DNA of 34,616 nucleotides from IMG/VR virus record IMGVR_UViG_3300046460_000100, positions 1 through 34,616 of that record, one strand, 5' to 3'. The position numbers and the translations under genes are program-made. Source of the stretch: a virus. Under the pieces are notes generated by a model. The model ran no database searches, was not told the DNA's origin, and was given only the letters and a program-made list of their open reading frames with translations. Shown in pieces: positions 1 through 28,175 of the stretch; within the stretch, counting starts at the first letter, position 1; every line of letters starts with the position of its first letter.

Positions 1-226
1 CCACGGATTTGTCACCGGGAGCGCCTAGCCAGAGATCGACATCCACGGGTCCAGGTGCCCAGCACATGAGCACGGCGATGTTGCCGGGAGGTGGCAGTGT
101 GTCGGGGTTCTTCTTTGCTGGCGGGTTCATGCTCAAGAGAGCAAAGAACAGGATGGCAAGCACCAGGCCAACATACGAAAAGAGGAGGTCGATCTGTCCG
201 AAAGGCCATTTCGACTGGTCGTCCAT
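1..226 (-). CDS. ExbD/TolR-like membrane protein, partial (C-terminus outside window)
   Basis: The 75 visible codons read as a short polar N-terminus, one membrane segment (about residues 14-33) and a proline-rich extracytoplasmic start. The N-terminus WPFGQIDLLF matches the ExbD/TolR pattern in which P-F-x-x-D comes just before the single membrane helix; Asp13 would be the proton-carrying residue. ExbD-type proteins pair with ExbB/MotA-type channels to turn proton flow into work on the envelope. The start ATG abuts the TAG stop of the ExbB-like gene upstream, so the two are probably translated together. The periplasmic part (about residues 45-75, with GPVDVDLWLGAPGDKSV) is not a part of ExbD I can recognise. 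The gene runs off the left edge. The family call is an inference from a short motif and the neighbour. Confidence 0.6.
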   Translation of the reverse strand, partial: MDDQSKWPFGQIDLLFSYVGLVLAILFFALLSMNPPAKKNPDTLPPPGNIAVLMCWAPGPVDVDLWLGAPGDKSV

Positions 227-745
227 CTACATGGCTTCCAATTCGAGCAAACTCATTTCGGTATAGAGCATCATGGCGTTCAAAATCGTCCAGATGTGGA
301 ACGATGCGCCGACGATCGTTGCGCCGAACGTCATGCTTGCACCGCCCATGACCTGAAGGCCAAGTTTCGGGCCCGCCTCCGGGGACGCCAAGGCGCTCAC
401 GTCGATGCCGTAGAACATCGCTTTGATGCCAATTGCATTCCCGATGATGCCCAGGATGAAAAGGACGCTGGAGAATACGATGAGATGCTTCGACTTGATC
501 ATGAGCGCCCGGATGCTCTTGAGCCTCCCGTTCGCCGTGAAGTCAGACCTGTCGCGGATCGCCTCGACCTTGAAGGCAATGCGGAATGTCGAGACGAGCC
601 CGAGCAGGAACATCCCCGCCATGATCTCGGCCATGTGGGCAATGTCGCCTTCCGTGACGCGGGCGATATACCCAAGCCAGTAGGCCCAGATGAGCAGGCA
701 GGCGCCGGCTGTGTTGGCAACAAAGAGTTTGTACGGCAGGGTCAT
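227..745 (-). CDS. ExbB/TolQ/MotA-like proton channel protein
   Basis: 172 aa with four hydrophobic segments (about residues 8-28, 38-58, 87-112 and 131-160). The last two resemble the paired channel helices of ExbB/TolQ: GIIGNAIGI (99-107) corresponds to the GLFGTVWGI helix, and FGATIVGASFHIWT (140-153) to the A-T-x-x-G helix, with Thr143 in the position of the conserved channel threonine. The 50-85 loop is basic and presumably cytoplasmic. The ATG at 745 was chosen over an upstream start at 892 because it forms an ATGA overlap with the stop of the secreted ClpP-like gene; the extra upstream residues are arginine-rich shadow sequence. It probably forms an inner-membrane stator with the ExbD-like product that follows. 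The family assignment rests on pattern, not on a search. Confidence 0.6.
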   Translation of the reverse strand: MTLPYKLFVANTAGACLLIWAYWLGYIARVTEGDIAHMAEIMAGMFLLGLVSTFRIAFKVEAIRDRSDFTANGRLKSIRALMIKSKHLIVFSSVLFILGIIGNAIGIKAMFYGIDVSALASPEAGPKLGLQVMGGASMTFGATIVGASFHIWTILNAMMLYTEMSLLELEAM

Positions 746-1245
746 TTCGACACCTCGCAGCGCGGCACAAAGAAAATCACTGGCACCACAAACACATCGT
801 TTTCGCTGTCGCCTTCGGATGCCGAGGGAATGCGCGCGTCCTTCAGGAGATTCCAAACGTCGTAGGGGAAATTCGCCAGCATCGAGGCCCACATCTGCCG
901 GGCTGTGCGGATTGACGCTTTGGTCTTGACGATGTTGTGGCGCTTGTCGAACGCATAGGGCTTATGGAAGGCGAAGATGGCATCAGGATCAGCCGCACAA
1001 GCCTTGATGCCGGTGAATTCCCGCAGCAGGATCAGTGTGCAAGCACTCGCGCAATAGCCGTGCAGGCGGATGACCGCGCCTTCCTTGGAGAGCTTCTGAT
1101 AGTTCTCATAAAATTCGCGAACATTGCCGCCGGGGCTGTCCTGGATGTCGATGATCTGGGGCGATGATCCTTCATTCGGATCGACGGCGGCATAGACTGG
1201 CGCGCTATAGATCAGCGCGGCGAGCAGTGCGACGAGGCGGATCAT
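742..1245 (-). CDS. Secreted ClpP-fold (COG3904-like) serine protease homologue
   Basis: 167 aa beginning with a signal peptide (residues 1-19, likely cleaved after VYA). The mature part has the ClpP/S49 layout: a DSPGG strand-loop (36-40, compare NSPGG in ClpP), then CASAC (65-69) with Ser67 as nucleophile, then FAFHKPY with His94 in the place of the catalytic histidine. A later Asp (DVWNLL or KDARIP region) could complete the triad. The predicted location is the periplasm. The two Cys around Ser67 could form a disulfide. Such secreted ClpP-like proteins are known in alphaproteobacteria as predicted periplasmic proteins of unknown role. Start and stop overlap the neighbours on both sides (TGA/ATG), so it belongs to the same operon as the ExbB/ExbD-like pair. 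Confidence 0.68.
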   Translation of the reverse strand: MIRLVALLAALIYSAPVYAAVDPNEGSSPQIIDIQDSPGGNVREFYENYQKLSKEGAVIRLHGYCASACTLILLREFTGIKACAADPDAIFAFHKPYAFDKRHNIVKTKASIRTARQMWASMLANFPYDVWNLLKDARIPSASEGDSENDVFVVPVIFFVPRCEVSK

Positions 1246-1486: not shown

Positions 1487-1807
1487 TTATTTGCTTTGGA
1501 AGAAAGCTTGCGAACCGATGACCATCAACCAGACAAGACCGGAGACGACAGCGAGGATCACGGCGCCGCCAATCTTCGATGACGTTCCCTCATACCAAAG
1601 CCGGAATTTGCGGACGAAAGAGAAGTCTGCGGCGGCGGCAGTCTGGTTTACATCGCCGTCGAGGCGCAGGCCCGCGTCCTTCAACTCAGCGCGGATTGCG
1701 GGAGCCATGGCGCGCTTTACGGCAGCGTCGATGATCTCTGCCAGTTCTTCCTTCTGCGCGTCGGAGAAGCCTTCTGTGTGGCGCCCTATGCGCTTTGGTG
1801 GCGTCAT
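1487..1807 (-). CDS. Membrane-anchored phage protein next to the o-spanin gene
   Basis: 106 aa. The N-terminal 60 residues are polar and helical (SDAQKEELAEIIDAAVKRAM), the middle holds ADFSFVRKFRLWYEG, and a single membrane helix lies near the C-terminus (about residues 80-100). This order, a cytoplasmic helix then FxFxR then a C-terminal membrane helix, is common in small proteins of alphaproteobacterial phage lysis modules, whose role is unproven. The ATG at 1807 overlaps the stop of the lipoprotein gene (ATGA), which sets the start. It could be an accessory holin or antiholin; no direct evidence. The 119 bases after its stop hold no gene I can support. Confidence 0.6.
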   Translation of the reverse strand: MTPPKRIGRHTEGFSDAQKEELAEIIDAAVKRAMAPAIRAELKDAGLRLDGDVNQTAAAADFSFVRKFRLWYEGTSSKIGGAVILAVVSGLVWLMVIGSQAFFQSK

Positions 1808-2067
1808 CGTCCCGCCTCCTGCACGGTGACAGCCTTCGCCAGCGCACCTTGTCGGCGCATGCATGTTCCCAGCGCCTTGCGGTCCTTGGCCCAGAGGCGG
1901 CTCACTTCGGCAACGGTGAGATCACGCTCCGGAATGTTCACTACGCCCGCGCAAGCCTGCCTGAGCGTTTGCGGGATCTTGGCAATGGAAGTTGGTGGGA
2001 CGAACTCCAGCGTCGTGGTGCAGCCTCCCAAGGCCAGCAGGGAGATGACGAGCAGAGTGCGGGTCAT
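1804..2067 (-). CDS. Rz1/LysC-like o-spanin lipoprotein
   Basis: 87 aa with a lipoprotein signal: a hydrophobic stretch and lipobox LGGC with lipidation at Cys16. The mature part begins TTTLEFVPP and has the proline-containing start, a conserved LRQAC segment and a C-terminal DRKALGTC, as in LysC/Rz1-like outer-membrane spanins. O-spanins join an inner-membrane partner to fuse the two membranes in the last step of lysis. Its likely partner is the Rz-like protein at 2808-3179, but a methyltransferase gene separates the two, unlike the usual nested or adjacent Rz/Rz1 pair. The ATG overlaps the methyltransferase stop (ATGA). Confidence 0.65.
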   Translation of the reverse strand: MTRTLLVISLLALGGCTTTLEFVPPTSIAKIPQTLRQACAGVVNIPERDLTVAEVSRLWAKDRKALGTCMRRQGALAKAVTVQEAGR

Positions 2068-2807
2068 TGTGCAGCCTCCAAGAAAAAGGCCCCTTGAGGG
2101 GCCGCTGTCTCAATGCGCTTTTGCGCTATGTCGAAGTAGGTTGGATCTCGCTCTATGCCGATGAAGCGGCGGCCAGTGTTCCGACATGCCACGCCAGTCG
2201 TGCCTGACCCCATCGTATTGTCGAGAACCGTGTCGCCTTCGTTGGTGTAGGTGCGGATAAGGTATTCGAACAGCGGAACGGGCTTGGCAGTCGGATGCGG
2301 ATTGGATGTGTCCGTGGCGAACTCAACTACAGAGCGAGGAAACCCGCCCTCTCGTTGAATATAGTCGGACGAGGCTACATCACCGTAAACACCTCGTGCT
2401 GCCTTGTTTTTCCGCCCGCTGAGAATGTTGACAGGAAAGAGCCCCTGCGGATTGTAGCGCGCGGCGACCGAGCAAAATACCAGAATGCTTTCGTGGTCCT
2501 TCAGCGGCTTCCGGCGAGCATCGAGAAACCCAGTCGGCTTCTGTTTCCTCCATATCCACTCATACCGAAACATCTTCGGATTGCTCATCACCAGCGCGCT
2601 CGTAAACGGTTGGCTCGCGGTCAAAACAACCGCCGCATTCGGCTTGCAAATGCGCCTATATTCACGCCACAGTGGCTCGAACGGTATAACCGAATCCCAC
2701 TTGCAGGCGGTCGTCCCATACGGCAAATCGCACAGCACCATATCGACGCTGCCCGCTGGAATTGTCGGCATGATGTCGAGGCAATCGCCAAGCCGAAGAT
2801 CAATCAT
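2064..2807 (-). CDS. DNA methyltransferase (amino-methyltransferase, DLPY type)
   Basis: 247 aa. Catalytic motif IV is DLPYGTT (about residues 27-33), and the AdoMet-binding motif comes late (NTMGSGTTGVAC, about 198-209). That circular order is the beta class of N6-adenine/N4-cytosine methyltransferases. The C-terminal HPTAKPVPLFEYLI is the usual motif X region. No restriction nuclease is next to it, so it is an orphan enzyme, probably protecting phage DNA from host restriction or changing gene expression. The start at 2807 abuts the stop of the Rz-like gene, and its stop overlaps the lipoprotein start. Its place between the two spanin genes is odd. Target site not readable from sequence. Confidence 0.88.
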   Translation of the reverse strand: MIDLRLGDCLDIMPTIPAGSVDMVLCDLPYGTTACKWDSVIPFEPLWREYRRICKPNAAVVLTASQPFTSALVMSNPKMFRYEWIWRKQKPTGFLDARRKPLKDHESILVFCSVAARYNPQGLFPVNILSGRKNKAARGVYGDVASSDYIQREGGFPRSVVEFATDTSNPHPTAKPVPLFEYLIRTYTNEGDTVLDNTMGSGTTGVACRNTGRRFIGIERDPTYFDIAQKRIETAAPQGAFFLEAAQ

Positions 2808-3179
2808 CTAGCGGACACCGTTCAATGCATGAGCAATCGACTTCGGAAACACAGGCTTGTTGTCCTGTGCGTCCTTGCGAATGGCTTCCTCCAGGAATGC
2901 TTCGGCGCGCTCCGCGTCGAGCTGCTGCTGAAGCAGTTCATATTCGGCCTGGATCTGGTCGATGCGCGCTTGGTCGGCGGCTTTCTGTGCAGCCTGCTTG
3001 GCGAGCGCTTCCTTCTGGACCTTTTCCCATGCGATGCGCTCGTGAAGTTCGCCAGCCGAATAGCCCTGCGAATATTTGTGCGCGCTCCATGCCCAAATCC
3101 CGCCGCCAGCGAGCGCGGCAATGATGATGTAGACAACAAGCGTGTCGAGCCCGAGAAGCCGTGCTATGGTCCCGATCAT
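2808..3179 (-). CDS. Rz-like i-spanin
   Basis: 123 aa with an N-terminal membrane helix (about 14-34, LVVYIIIAALAGGGIWAW) followed by a long charged coiled-coil stretch (about 45-100, rich in Ala, Gln, Glu and Lys). This is the signature of Rz-type inner-membrane spanins, which cross the periplasm and act with an outer-membrane lipoprotein. It comes directly after the endolysin gene, separated by no bases, in the normal lysis order holin-endolysin-Rz. No Rz1 reading frame is nested in it; the likely partner is the lipoprotein two genes further on. Confidence 0.78.
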   Translation of the reverse strand: MIGTIARLLGLDTLVVYIIIAALAGGGIWAWSAHKYSQGYSAGELHERIAWEKVQKEALAKQAAQKAADQARIDQIQAEYELLQQQLDAERAEAFLEEAIRKDAQDNKPVFPKSIAHALNGVR

Positions 3180-3641
3180 TTAGAGACCCCGAAGGCACAG
3201 TTCGCGCTCTTTGGCGCGGCGCTTGGTCAGGCCCGGGAAGACAATCCCGGCAGCCCTATTGTATCTGAGAAGCGCGTCACACCCCTGCCGGGTCTTGCCT
3301 TCGTTGATGAGCCTCACAACACTCGATTTGCAGGCTGCTCCCACTCCAAGATTGTAGGCAAACGAGGTCAGCGCGACGAACCGGTCATCCGGCATCGAGA
3401 CCGTGGTGCAGGCAGAAATGCCGTTGGCGTACTTCTGGAGGCTTTCAACCAGCATGGCCCTGCATTCGGCAATCGAATGATAATCGCCCTTGTGCACGTC
3501 AGCCGTTTCGCCGAAACACACAGTCCACGGCTTCCCACCCGTTGCCGGATCGGGATAGGCGTTCTGGCGCAGCCCTTCGAATCCACCAATCAGAGCAACG
3601 GCCATTGCGGCAGCAGCGCCACCTCTCTTAAGACGGCTCAT
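3180..3641 (-). CDS. SAR endolysin, lysozyme (GH24, T4/P21-like)
   Basis: 153 aa. Residues 8-20 (GAAAAMAVALIGG) form a weakly hydrophobic Gly/Ala-rich signal-anchor-release segment, directly followed by the catalytic Glu22 (GFEGLRQNAYPD). Asp31 and Thr40 (WTVCFGET) complete the Glu-8-Asp-Thr triad of the GH24 muramidases. Several cysteines (42, near 60 and later) could allow the disulfide exchange used to activate SAR enzymes. It degrades peptidoglycan at the end of infection. The start ATG overlaps the holin stop (ATGA). Length and motif order are normal for the family. Confidence 0.92.
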   Translation of the reverse strand: MSRLKRGGAAAAMAVALIGGFEGLRQNAYPDPATGGKPWTVCFGETADVHKGDYHSIAECRAMLVESLQKYANGISACTTVSMPDDRFVALTSFAYNLGVGAACKSSVVRLINEGKTRQGCDALLRYNRAAGIVFPGLTKRRAKERELCLRGL

Positions 3642-3862
3642 TGGTCATCTCCTGAGATGCTTGGCTGTTGCTTGATACGAAGCAGCGGGAGGGCCACGCC
3701 GAACGCGCCATTGAGAACGATCAGCCAGATGGGTGCGACCGGCAGCGAACTGGTGTAGAGGTAGACAGCGATGGAAATGCCATTGAGGGATGCCAAGACG
3801 TAGCCAGCCCAAGCGGTCCAACTGCGCAAAAGCACGGTCTTCCAATTGTCAATGAGACGCAT
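3638..3862 (-). CDS. Holin-like small membrane protein
   Basis: 74 aa beginning MRLIDNWKTVLLRSW, a start often seen in small phage holin-like proteins, followed by two hydrophobic segments (about residues 17-36 and 42-62) and a short polar tail. It precedes the SAR endolysin with an ATGA overlap. With a SAR endolysin, a pinholin that depolarises the membrane would be enough, which fits the small size. The family is probably a two-helix phage holin; this is inferred from size, topology and position. Confidence 0.72.
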   Translation of the reverse strand: MRLIDNWKTVLLRSWTAWAGYVLASLNGISIAVYLYTSSLPVAPIWLIVLNGAFGVALPLLRIKQQPSISGDDQ

Positions 3863-7051: not shown

Positions 7052-7771
7052 CTATCCCATGCGCTTTTGAAGGAGGAGATCGGAAATCTTCGGCGCGTAG
7101 ACCGCCTTGAGCAGCCCGTCAGCGCCCTGCCGGACATCGCCCAACGGCTTGAACCGAACGGGTGGGGCGTCTGGTGTGTCGGCAAGCGCCTTGAACGCGC
7201 CATGGAGGCGTTCACCGAATGACTTGGGTTCTGGCGTGGATGCGTAGTCGGCTACGTCCTGCGGGATACCGGCGAGGATGCCGCCCTGTTGGCCTGTGGC
7301 AGGGGCGAGGCCCGGATAGCTTTCCTGTCCCTTGGGGCCGTCTGGAAGGCCGGCGTAGGGGCTTGCCGCGAACGGTGCGCCCTTGGCATTGTCAGTGAAA
7401 TAGTGGTTGCCGATTTTCAGGGCGTTTTGATCGTTGAGATTTCTCGCCCAAGAGGCAGTTGATGCGCCAGGATTGGCGTAGTAGGTGGCGCCATTGGTAA
7501 CACTAGGAAGATTGCCGGCCTTGAGCTGTTCGGCTACCGACCGGGCTTCCGGCCCGGCTTTCGAGGATTGCCCTTGAAACTGGTTGCGGGCCAAAGCTTG
7601 GTCCAGCGGGTTGCTTCCATAGCCGGAGAAATTCTGGTTTGCGCGGTTTCGGATGACATCGGCAACGGCCTGCATGCCAAGGAGACCTTCGCCGCCTGCT
7701 TCGCCCTGGATGATCGAGGCGAGCGTTTCGATGTCGTTTCCGAGGAGACGCGGTGTCCCTACGTAGGCCAT
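7052..7771 (-). CDS. Cell wall hydrolase, SleB/CwlJ-like (Hydrolase_2)
   Basis: 239 aa from the ATG at 7771, chosen because GAGG lies 8 bases upstream; a longer start at 7825 has no such site. Residues 14-70 (IETLASIIQGEAGGEGL, GMQAVADVIRNRA, ALARNQFQG) match the SleB/CwlJ peptidoglycan hydrolase family, with Glu24 as the probable catalytic residue. The C-terminal 110 residues are proline/glycine-rich and unfamiliar. As it sits among ejection and tail genes rather than with holin, it is probably a virion-associated enzyme that opens the wall during DNA entry. Confidence 0.82.
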   Translation of the reverse strand: MAYVGTPRLLGNDIETLASIIQGEAGGEGLLGMQAVADVIRNRANQNFSGYGSNPLDQALARNQFQGQSSKAGPEARSVAEQLKAGNLPSVTNGATYYANPGASTASWARNLNDQNALKIGNHYFTDNAKGAPFAASPYAGLPDGPKGQESYPGLAPATGQQGGILAGIPQDVADYASTPEPKSFGERLHGAFKALADTPDAPPVRFKPLGDVRQGADGLLKAVYAPKISDLLLQKRMG

Positions 7772-7775
7772 GGGC

Positions 7776-7804
7776 TTGCCTCGATGCTCGTTCGTCGCTA
7801 TTTT
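7776..7804 (+). promoter_or_regulatory. Predicted sigma70-type promoter for the plus-strand gene at 7811
   Basis: TTGCCT (7776-7781), a 17-base spacer, then TATTTT (7799-7804). The ATG at 7811 starts 6 bases after the -10 box, so a transcript would begin about at the start codon. The promoter overlaps the start region of the hydrolase gene on the other strand. Found by eye; spacing is ideal but both hexamers are imperfect. Confidence 0.42.
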
Positions 7805-7810
7805 GTGGGG

Positions 7811-8032
7811 ATGCAGATCGATCACGACCGCGAAGAGCCGCCGCGCGATACGGGCGGAAACTTTGTCTATTGGGGCGTGAGCGCAGTGGTGGCGTTTATC
7901 TGGGTCGTGTCACTGATGACTATGAACCTGGATTGGCATTCTGTTCGCCTTGGCGCCTTCACCGGAGGCGTTTTCGTCATAGTCATGTCGAAGATTACGG
8001 GGAACAAAGTCCCGAAATGGATGCGCCGCTAA
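7811..8032 (+). CDS. Small plus-strand membrane protein (73 aa), moron-like
   Basis: 73 aa from ATG 7811: an acidic/basic start (MQIDHDREEPPRDTGG), two hydrophobic helices (about residues 19-37 and 47-63) joined by a short loop, and a basic end (GNKVPKWMRR) that should stay in the cytoplasm. It is oriented against all neighbouring late genes and fills the 257-base space between the hydrolase and the ejection protein, overlapping the end of the latter by 4 bases. A predicted promoter lies directly upstream and no good ribosome binding site is seen, suggesting a leaderless message. Function unknown; small two-helix proteins expressed from prophages sometimes block superinfection, but that is speculation. 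Confidence 0.58.
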   Translation: MQIDHDREEPPRDTGGNFVYWGVSAVVAFIWVVSLMTMNLDWHSVRLGAFTGGVFVIVMSKITGNKVPKWMRR

Positions 8033-23483: not shown

Positions 23484-24146
23484 TCATAAGAGCGCTTCCT
23501 GCTTGGGCTCAGGAGCGCGATGCTCGACAAAGAAATCAGGTTGCGCGTATGCCTTCGTGATCCTGGCAACGGCGATGTCGAAGTAGCCTTCGTCTATCTC
23601 GATGCCGACGCCGGTCTTGCCCAGCTTGGCGCACGCCACAAGGGTGGTTCCTGACCCGCAGAAGGGGTCTATGATGGTTTGCGCATCTGGCGCGAAGCCA
23701 AGGCACCATTGCATCAACTGGATAGGCTTCTGGGTCGGATGTTCTTTACCGCCATCCATGTTCATGGGGCGGAACACAAAGCGGCGCGCTACCATGTCGA
23801 GATTGGTCCACGCCATCTCAAAATCTGCGAAGTCCCTGCCCGCGTTGTTCTTGTCCCAAACCAACGGCGCACGAGTGGGCGGAAGATCAAAATAGTTACC
23901 GCCCCAGATGATCAATTTCTGGGCTTTGCTGCGCAAAAGTGCTATTGTTTCCGCGTCAATTGGTCTGTCGTCCCAAGTCTTGCCGCCCATGCCGCGACTG
24001 ACCGCCAGTCGATTGGATTTGGTGATGTTAATCCCATAGGGCGGGTCCGTCAGGCAAAGGTCGAACTGCCCAAGCGATGGCAAGACATCGCCCATATCGC
24101 CCAGTATGAGCCGGCAATCGCCAATCTGGACCTCGCGGCGGATCAT
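23484..24146 (-). CDS. DNA methyltransferase (DPPY type)
   Basis: 220 aa. Motif IV LTDPPYGI (about 32-39) is the catalytic site for N6-adenine or N4-cytosine methylation; the AdoMet motif DPFCGSGTTLVAC is near residue 160, after HPTQKPIQLMQW. This is the beta-class order with a small recognition region. Its ATG shares one base with the stop of the gene upstream (TGATG). No restriction enzyme is nearby. It is a second, unlike copy besides the enzyme at 2064-2807: one is in the early operon and one in the lysis region, so they could act at different times. Confidence 0.9.
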   Translation of the reverse strand: MIRREVQIGDCRLILGDMGDVLPSLGQFDLCLTDPPYGINITKSNRLAVSRGMGGKTWDDRPIDAETIALLRSKAQKLIIWGGNYFDLPPTRAPLVWDKNNAGRDFADFEMAWTNLDMVARRFVFRPMNMDGGKEHPTQKPIQLMQWCLGFAPDAQTIIDPFCGSGTTLVACAKLGKTGVGIEIDEGYFDIAVARITKAYAQPDFFVEHRAPEPKQEALL

Positions 24147-27437: not shown

Positions 27438-28175
27438 ATGACTAATGGTCTGGTGCGTTCGATGGATAACAGCCCGGAATCAATAGCCAATCGTATGCGC
27501 AAACTGCGTGAGCGCACCGACTTGTCGATTGACCAGATGGCGAGGGGGATGGGCTACGCCAGCGCCTCTAGCATCCAACGCTACTTCGACGCCGGCAAAC
27601 TGAAAACAGGCTACCTTAAGAGGGATTTTGTGGCCAAGGTTGAGAAAGTGTTACTAGGCAAGGGCAACCCGCCAATCACAAGGCCCGAGATATGGGAACT
27701 CGCGGGGCCGGAATTCAACTTTGGAGCATTAGAGACTTCTAATGCTGTTGTTATCTCACAGAACGTTACTTCCGTACACAAAATCCCCGTGTATGGTAGC
27801 GCGGTTGGTGGAGTGGATGGCGAATTCGCCATGAATGGAGGTATCTTGTACGAGGTGGCGGCCCCACCGGTACTGACTAACGTATCCGGGGCATATGCAG
27901 TGCAAATCTCTGGCGAATCAATGGAACCGCGTTACTTCGATGGCGAAGTGGTTTTTGTGAACCCACACCGCAGGGTTGTAAAAGGCGATTTCGTCATTGT
28001 CCAGATACTTGGCGAGACAGACGATGATCCGCCCCTGGCCTTCGTGAAGCGGTTCGTTCGGCACAACGCCGCCGAGCTGGTGCTTGAGCAATATAATCCA
28101 GTGAAGGAATTGCGGTTTCCGCACGATCGGGTGAAATCAGTGCATTTCATCACGATGGGAGGCTCTAGCTCTTAG
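27438..28175 (+). CDS. Phage repressor, HTH plus S24 (LexA-like) peptidase
   Basis: 245 aa. N-terminal HTH (about 16-55; RMRKLRERTDLSIDQMARGM, ASASSIQRYF). The C-terminal S24 domain begins near 113 (HKIPVYGSAVGG); catalytic Ser161 lies in SGESMEPRY and Lys204 in FVKRFV. The cleavage region reads AVGG instead of the common Ala-Gly bond, so RecA-stimulated self-cleavage is not certain. It keeps the lysogenic state by binding the TACGCA..TGCGTA operators. Start 27438 chosen for its position just after the operator; an internal ATG at 27462 is possible. The gene is more AT-rich than its neighbours. Confidence 0.9.
   Translation: MTNGLVRSMDNSPESIANRMRKLRERTDLSIDQMARGMGYASASSIQRYFDAGKLKTGYLKRDFVAKVEKVLLGKGNPPITRPEIWELAGPEFNFGALETSNAVVISQNVTSVHKIPVYGSAVGGVDGEFAMNGGILYEVAAPPVLTNVSGAYAVQISGESMEPRYFDGEVVFVNPHRRVVKGDFVIVQILGETDDDPPLAFVKRFVRHNAAELVLEQYNPVKELRFPHDRVKSVHFITMGGSSS

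Follow-up and report, generated by a model that had tools for sequence, protein, structure and literature searches.

The 34,616-base virus record analysed here (hereafter the window, which is the whole record and lacks end repeats) opens with the truncated part of a three-gene unit, B-D-Z, in which B is a channel subunit of the MotA/TolQ/ExbB/ZorA type, D is its single-span partner with a membrane Asp, and Z is a third gene that usually follows D. It is a new branch of an established superfamily of proton-driven motors, relatives of which power flagella and work at the outer membrane, rather than a machine of a new type. We consider it possible, with a probability of roughly 0.4, that the module is an envelope energizer that is driven by the proton motive force and acts before lysis, with superinfection exclusion being the likeliest benefit for the phage. 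The sequence-only reading had described a reduced, phage-owned stator pair: B and D are real and adjacent, but the "pair" is a truncated view of the larger unit, and the module proves to be a cellular one with a third gene.

The window reads as a phage, as portal, major head protein, and terminase genes are present, and its closest terminases are those of EBPR podovirus 2, Sulfitobacter phage phiGT1, and a Bradyrhizobium prophage. A repressor gene suggests that the phage is temperate. The late genes lie on the minus strand and reach holin-like, lysozyme, Rz-like, and Rz1-like genes (assigned by Pfam and PHROG searches), past which come a gap, a gene for a secreted protein, B, and the start of D:

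2-226, minus strand: D, cut by the record end: the N-terminal 75 aa, which include the single span and the start of a predicted Ig-like ectodomain
227-745, minus strand: B, a four-helix membrane protein of 172 aa, MotA/TolQ/ExbB/ZorA-type channel subunit (profiles, AlphaFold2)
742-1245, minus strand: secreted ClpP/SppA-like protein, a putative serine protease (motifs, PHROG)
1804-2067, minus strand: Rz1-like gene
2808-3179, minus strand: Rz-like gene
3180-3641, minus strand: lysozyme gene
3638-3862, minus strand: holin-like gene
27438-28175: repressor gene

Two DNA methyltransferase genes are also found in the window (2064-2807 and 23484-24146), one of which sits between the Rz-like and Rz1-like genes. 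A second endolysin-like domain (7052-7825, phrog_938) lies amid the virion genes and is possibly a virion-borne wall hydrolase. Promoter and terminator scans did no better than shuffles.

The homology of B to the MotA/TolQ/ExbB/ZorA proton channel superfamily is well supported. The original proposal of a four-helix protein whose last two helices resemble ExbB/TolQ is borne out by the AlphaFold2 model (mean pLDDT 93; long helices H3-23, H38-65, H86-111, and H124-171, the last two forming the MotA/TolQ/ExbB core), Pfam, PDB profiles, and hhalign, and the motifs GIIGNAIGI and FGATIVG are both present as quoted. In Pfam, 19 of 31 members of the B family match MotA_ExbB (PF01618) at E<=0.01 and several phage and bacterial members exceed the curated cut-off; the window's own B (P0001), which had no Pfam match when searched singly, joins PF01618 via its family. 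More generally, searches of the window's own B and D against Pfam and PHROG gave nothing useful. PDB profile searches from close relatives only found no matches, and B matched once distant members were included, the diverse profile retrieving nine sequences at E<=1e-3, every one of which is ZorA, MotA, or TolQ, with ZorA as the best matches. The two channel helices align with those of E. coli ExbB/TolQ in hhalign, and the first 47 places of a Foldseek search against the PDB were taken only by TolQ, ExbB, ZorA, MotA, and PomA, a result that is supportive but not proof, since no E value was better than 0.07 and TM-scores were low. The first channel helix has as its polar residue N103 in the window and Thr in most relatives; of 47 phage B proteins, 31 (that of the window among them) have Asn here, and of 78 from bacteria, 76 have Thr. 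T143, in the second channel helix, is kept in nearly all homologs.

The D reading frame follows the stop codon of B without a gap, reads MDDQSKWPFGQIDLLF..., and is still open where the contig ends, with its conserved membrane Asp at residue 13, as anticipated for a single-span protein adjoining B. Of 130 distinct homologs, 129 have this Asp, and its conservation in the bacterial set is not a product of the search because the genome scan for bacterial D used the DVDLW motif alone. The full-length D of the closest relative (L002:6780-7331, 184 aa, 87% identical over the shared part) is modelled by AlphaFold2 (pLDDT 89) with one membrane helix, the Asp near the helix start, and then an eight-stranded sandwich, so the extracytoplasmic domain on which the stator proposal depended is there. 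In the model this ectodomain is an Ig-like beta sandwich, for which the best Foldseek matches were domains of the DUF4425 type, including one whose structure was solved with calcium (E about 2.5e-3). Across 130 sequences no variation was seen at residues W56, D62, D64, D90, D91, and G93, some of which the search motif favours, and D may carry a metal site. The view of D as ExbD proper had to be given up, as had a TolR assignment: Pfam ExbD is not matched, the ectodomain takes the DUF4425-like form instead, and hhalign against the ExbD/TolR type aligned only 18 columns round the transmembrane Asp. An OmpA-like domain in D was ruled out by profile searches, the AlphaFold2 model, and Foldseek. 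When the window is compared with this relative, whose B is 90% identical, dN/dS (NG86) is about 0.10 for B and about 0.10 for D, which indicates that both genes are under purifying selection. Elsewhere in the family, the D of L004 (6521-7072) is mosaic-like, its start resembling L005 and its ectodomain L002, which suggests that D modules are perhaps swapped between phages, and two D genes lie near one another in chromosomal loci L111, L148, L161, and L162.

Related loci were gathered from viral contigs, phage records, and bacterial genomes. A survey of this kind had been proposed for related phages. Of 49 distinct viral loci, 48 have B upstream of D, as do 79 of the 80 bacterial loci, the single bacterial locus without B starting at a contig end. 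Z follows D in all 49 viral loci and in 77 of the 80 chromosomal loci; the complete unit is thus found in 48 of 49 viral loci and in most of the chromosomal ones. Small or homing-endonuclease genes have been inserted between B and D in some phages, and such insertions precede Z in some as well. In the exceptional viral locus, a B-like membrane ORF without the channel motif (L034:370-843), which may be a degenerate or altered B, stands before an intact D and Z; the B of L070 is recognised by Pfam and not by the family HMM. Because gene order and the membrane Asp are kept across viral and bacterial loci, a chance resemblance of the B/D pair was rejected. Z carries two hydrophobic segments near its N terminus as well as a further domain, and it found no meaningful match in Pfam, PHROG, or the PDB, including none that would make it a TolA or TonB. 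Clustering of chromosomal neighbourhoods left B, D, and Z as the only generally conserved genes. The Z of the window phage would lie past the record end.

The module is not phage-specific, as it resides on alphaproteobacterial chromosomes and in several unrelated phage lineages. D was detected in 58 of 385 sampled Alphaproteobacteria, 15 of 299 genomes of a phylum sample, 27 of 82 genomes of the Azospirillum family, 6 of 99 genomes of the Mesorhizobium genus, and 5 of 298 genomes of the Shinella family, where at least four of the five are prophage-like. All 27 phage records with the module are Rhizobium or Sinorhizobium phages. A tree separates a rhizobial phage clade, a large-phage and marine clade, single viral lineages, and a cellular group, although its deep order is unsure owing to long branches. 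In one family of Alphaproteobacteria, whose genomes measure about 1.3 Mb, B-D-Z is a single-copy core unit (29 of 32 genomes), and in the two members that were read it sits amid housekeeping genes such as apt:

L157:4906-6753: chromosomal copy of B-D-Z
L160:5241-7097: chromosomal copy of B-D-Z

These chromosomal copies raise the alternative that the module serves, like Tol, to keep the envelope of the infected or lysogenic cell in working order, a task that its chromosomal relatives may perform in the absence of a phage. The near-universal single copy and its synteny amid housekeeping genes in the small-genome family speak for such maintenance, as does the purifying selection on B and D. However, the rarity of the module in the Shinella family implies that the phage copy does not stand in for a gene that its hosts commonly have, and a maintenance role leaves the secreted protein encoded before B in phages unexplained; we therefore regard it as somewhat unlikely. 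Since the Shinella family is almost without the module, phages of such hosts would bring the cell something new.

The slot in front of B is occupied in the window by the ClpP/SppA-like gene, which overlaps the B start by 4 bases. Its product matches phrog_19619 (E 1e-15) and phrog_26024, annotated 'protease' (E 0.011), and its SPGG, CASAC, and FHKP motifs recur in most relatives; a PDB profile search brought no confirmation of the ClpP-like assignment, which is putative and draws on the motifs together with the weak PHROG matches. The product would be expected to have protease activity. The window's clade comprises 38 distinct loci besides the window, and among these the slot holds a secreted trypsin-like protease in 29, a ClpP/SppA-like protein of the window's type in five (L003, L004, L005, L050, and L058, sharing phrog_19619), and a small periplasmic protein in two, the last of which also precedes some chromosomal Mesorhizobium copies. 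Chromosomal loci are without the trypsin-like and ClpP-like proteins, the one exception being Shinella L077; its D and the D of viral L019 are identical. As the window's nearest relative has the trypsin-like type and the window the ClpP-like one, the slot protein has apparently undergone a non-homologous swap, and that an unrelated type has taken over the position suggests that the slot protein and the motor are functionally linked. It is conceivable, though unlikely, that a secreted protease dedicated to the B-D-Z motor, and driven or positioned by it, remodels the host envelope during infection. If true, this would be a phage envelope-takeover device of an undescribed kind, and the slot offers a concrete handle on module function.

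The genomic setting bears directly on a role in lysis, which the sequence-only reading had raised among other functions. As a late accessory, the motor and the protease-like protein would weaken a tethered outer membrane and thereby free the progeny. The window's module lies on the same strand as, and downstream of, the holin-like, lysozyme, Rz-like, and Rz1-like genes, and in 18 of 38 clade loci, as in the window, about 5 kb at most separates the module from an endolysin gene, which in those clade loci lies upstream; late expression would fit this arrangement too. However, a proton-driven device is left unpowered once the holin fires, spanin-like genes are already present in the window, and relatives sit amid DNA-metabolism genes or on chromosomes, all of which make a lysis role decidedly improbable. 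An obligatory role was rejected, as constant linkage to holin, endolysin, and spanin genes holds in the window's clade and fails in the large myoviruses examined and on chromosomes. The module of those myoviruses lies among gyrase, nuclease, helicase, and clamp-loader genes, a setting that fits action before lysis.

The closest solved structures to B are those of ZorA, and PADLOC ZorA models match 24 of the 31 B family members, which brings in prophage-borne anti-phage defence like that of ZorAB, in which the module would sense envelope disturbance by an incoming phage and then signal or kill. The core helices of B are homologous to ZorA (Zorya structures PDB 8qyh, 8qyd, and 8vvn). However, B is without the long cytoplasmic tail of ZorA and ends with its last helix, D is without the OmpA-like peptidoglycan-binding domain of ZorB, and no ZorC, ZorD, or ZorE-type effector gene was found in the chromosomal neighbourhoods or phage neighbours examined, the third gene Z being kept instead. 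Membership in Zorya was rejected on these grounds. Core status in 29 of 32 genomes of the small-genome family is likewise unlike a defence system and better fits an envelope machine, so a defensive function appears no less improbable than one in lysis.

Other members of the superfamily are similar in part. With TolQ/TolR/TolA and ExbB/ExbD/TonB the module shares the channel helix pair with its G-(T/N) and Thr motifs (by hhalign), a partner with a membrane Asp, and a three-gene logic, whereas B has four helices in place of the three of TolQ and ExbB, the D ectodomain is unrelated to that of ExbD/TolR, and Z is not recognisably TolA or TonB. The MotA/MotB stator has in common a four-helix channel subunit and a single-span partner with an Asp, but the cytoplasmic loop of B is tiny, D carries no OmpA-like domain, and a flagellar context is absent. 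Few ion-driven motors are known (MotAB, ExbBD, TolQR, ZorAB, and some others); the module adds to them a branch whose axle ectodomain and third gene are both new, and it is found from podoviruses to large myoviruses.

Returning to the envelope energizer that we prefer, B would most likely form a pentameric channel with a dimeric D as the axle inside it, the 5:2 stoichiometry following by homology. Protons may move by way of D's membrane Asp past the Thr that is conserved in the last B helix, and the Ig-like ectodomain of D, together with Z, may pass the movement to something in the periplasm or outer membrane. The module would most likely alter the envelope during infection or lysogeny, at a time when the membrane has not yet lost its energy. 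We infer the assembly, the proton flow, the force output, what Z and the protease-like protein do, and the phage benefit. Superinfection exclusion through the altered envelope is our leading guess for that benefit, on grounds of plausibility, and envelope maintenance is the next.

A search for viral structures gave one good match, to an unnamed protein of 147 aa, and otherwise noise. The literature on phage ExbB/ExbD, Zorya, stator evolution, and phage 16-3, with subscription journals mostly outside its scope, yielded no description of the module. The temperate Rhizobium phage 16-3 (NC_011103) does carry a homologous unit, which makes the question of why phages carry envelope motors directly testable. 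Its genes, annotated only as protease and p0xx, comprise the protease p036, B (p038), D (p040), and Z (p042); compared with the window, the slot protein of 16-3 is trypsin-like and not ClpP-like, and its B has GT and not GN.
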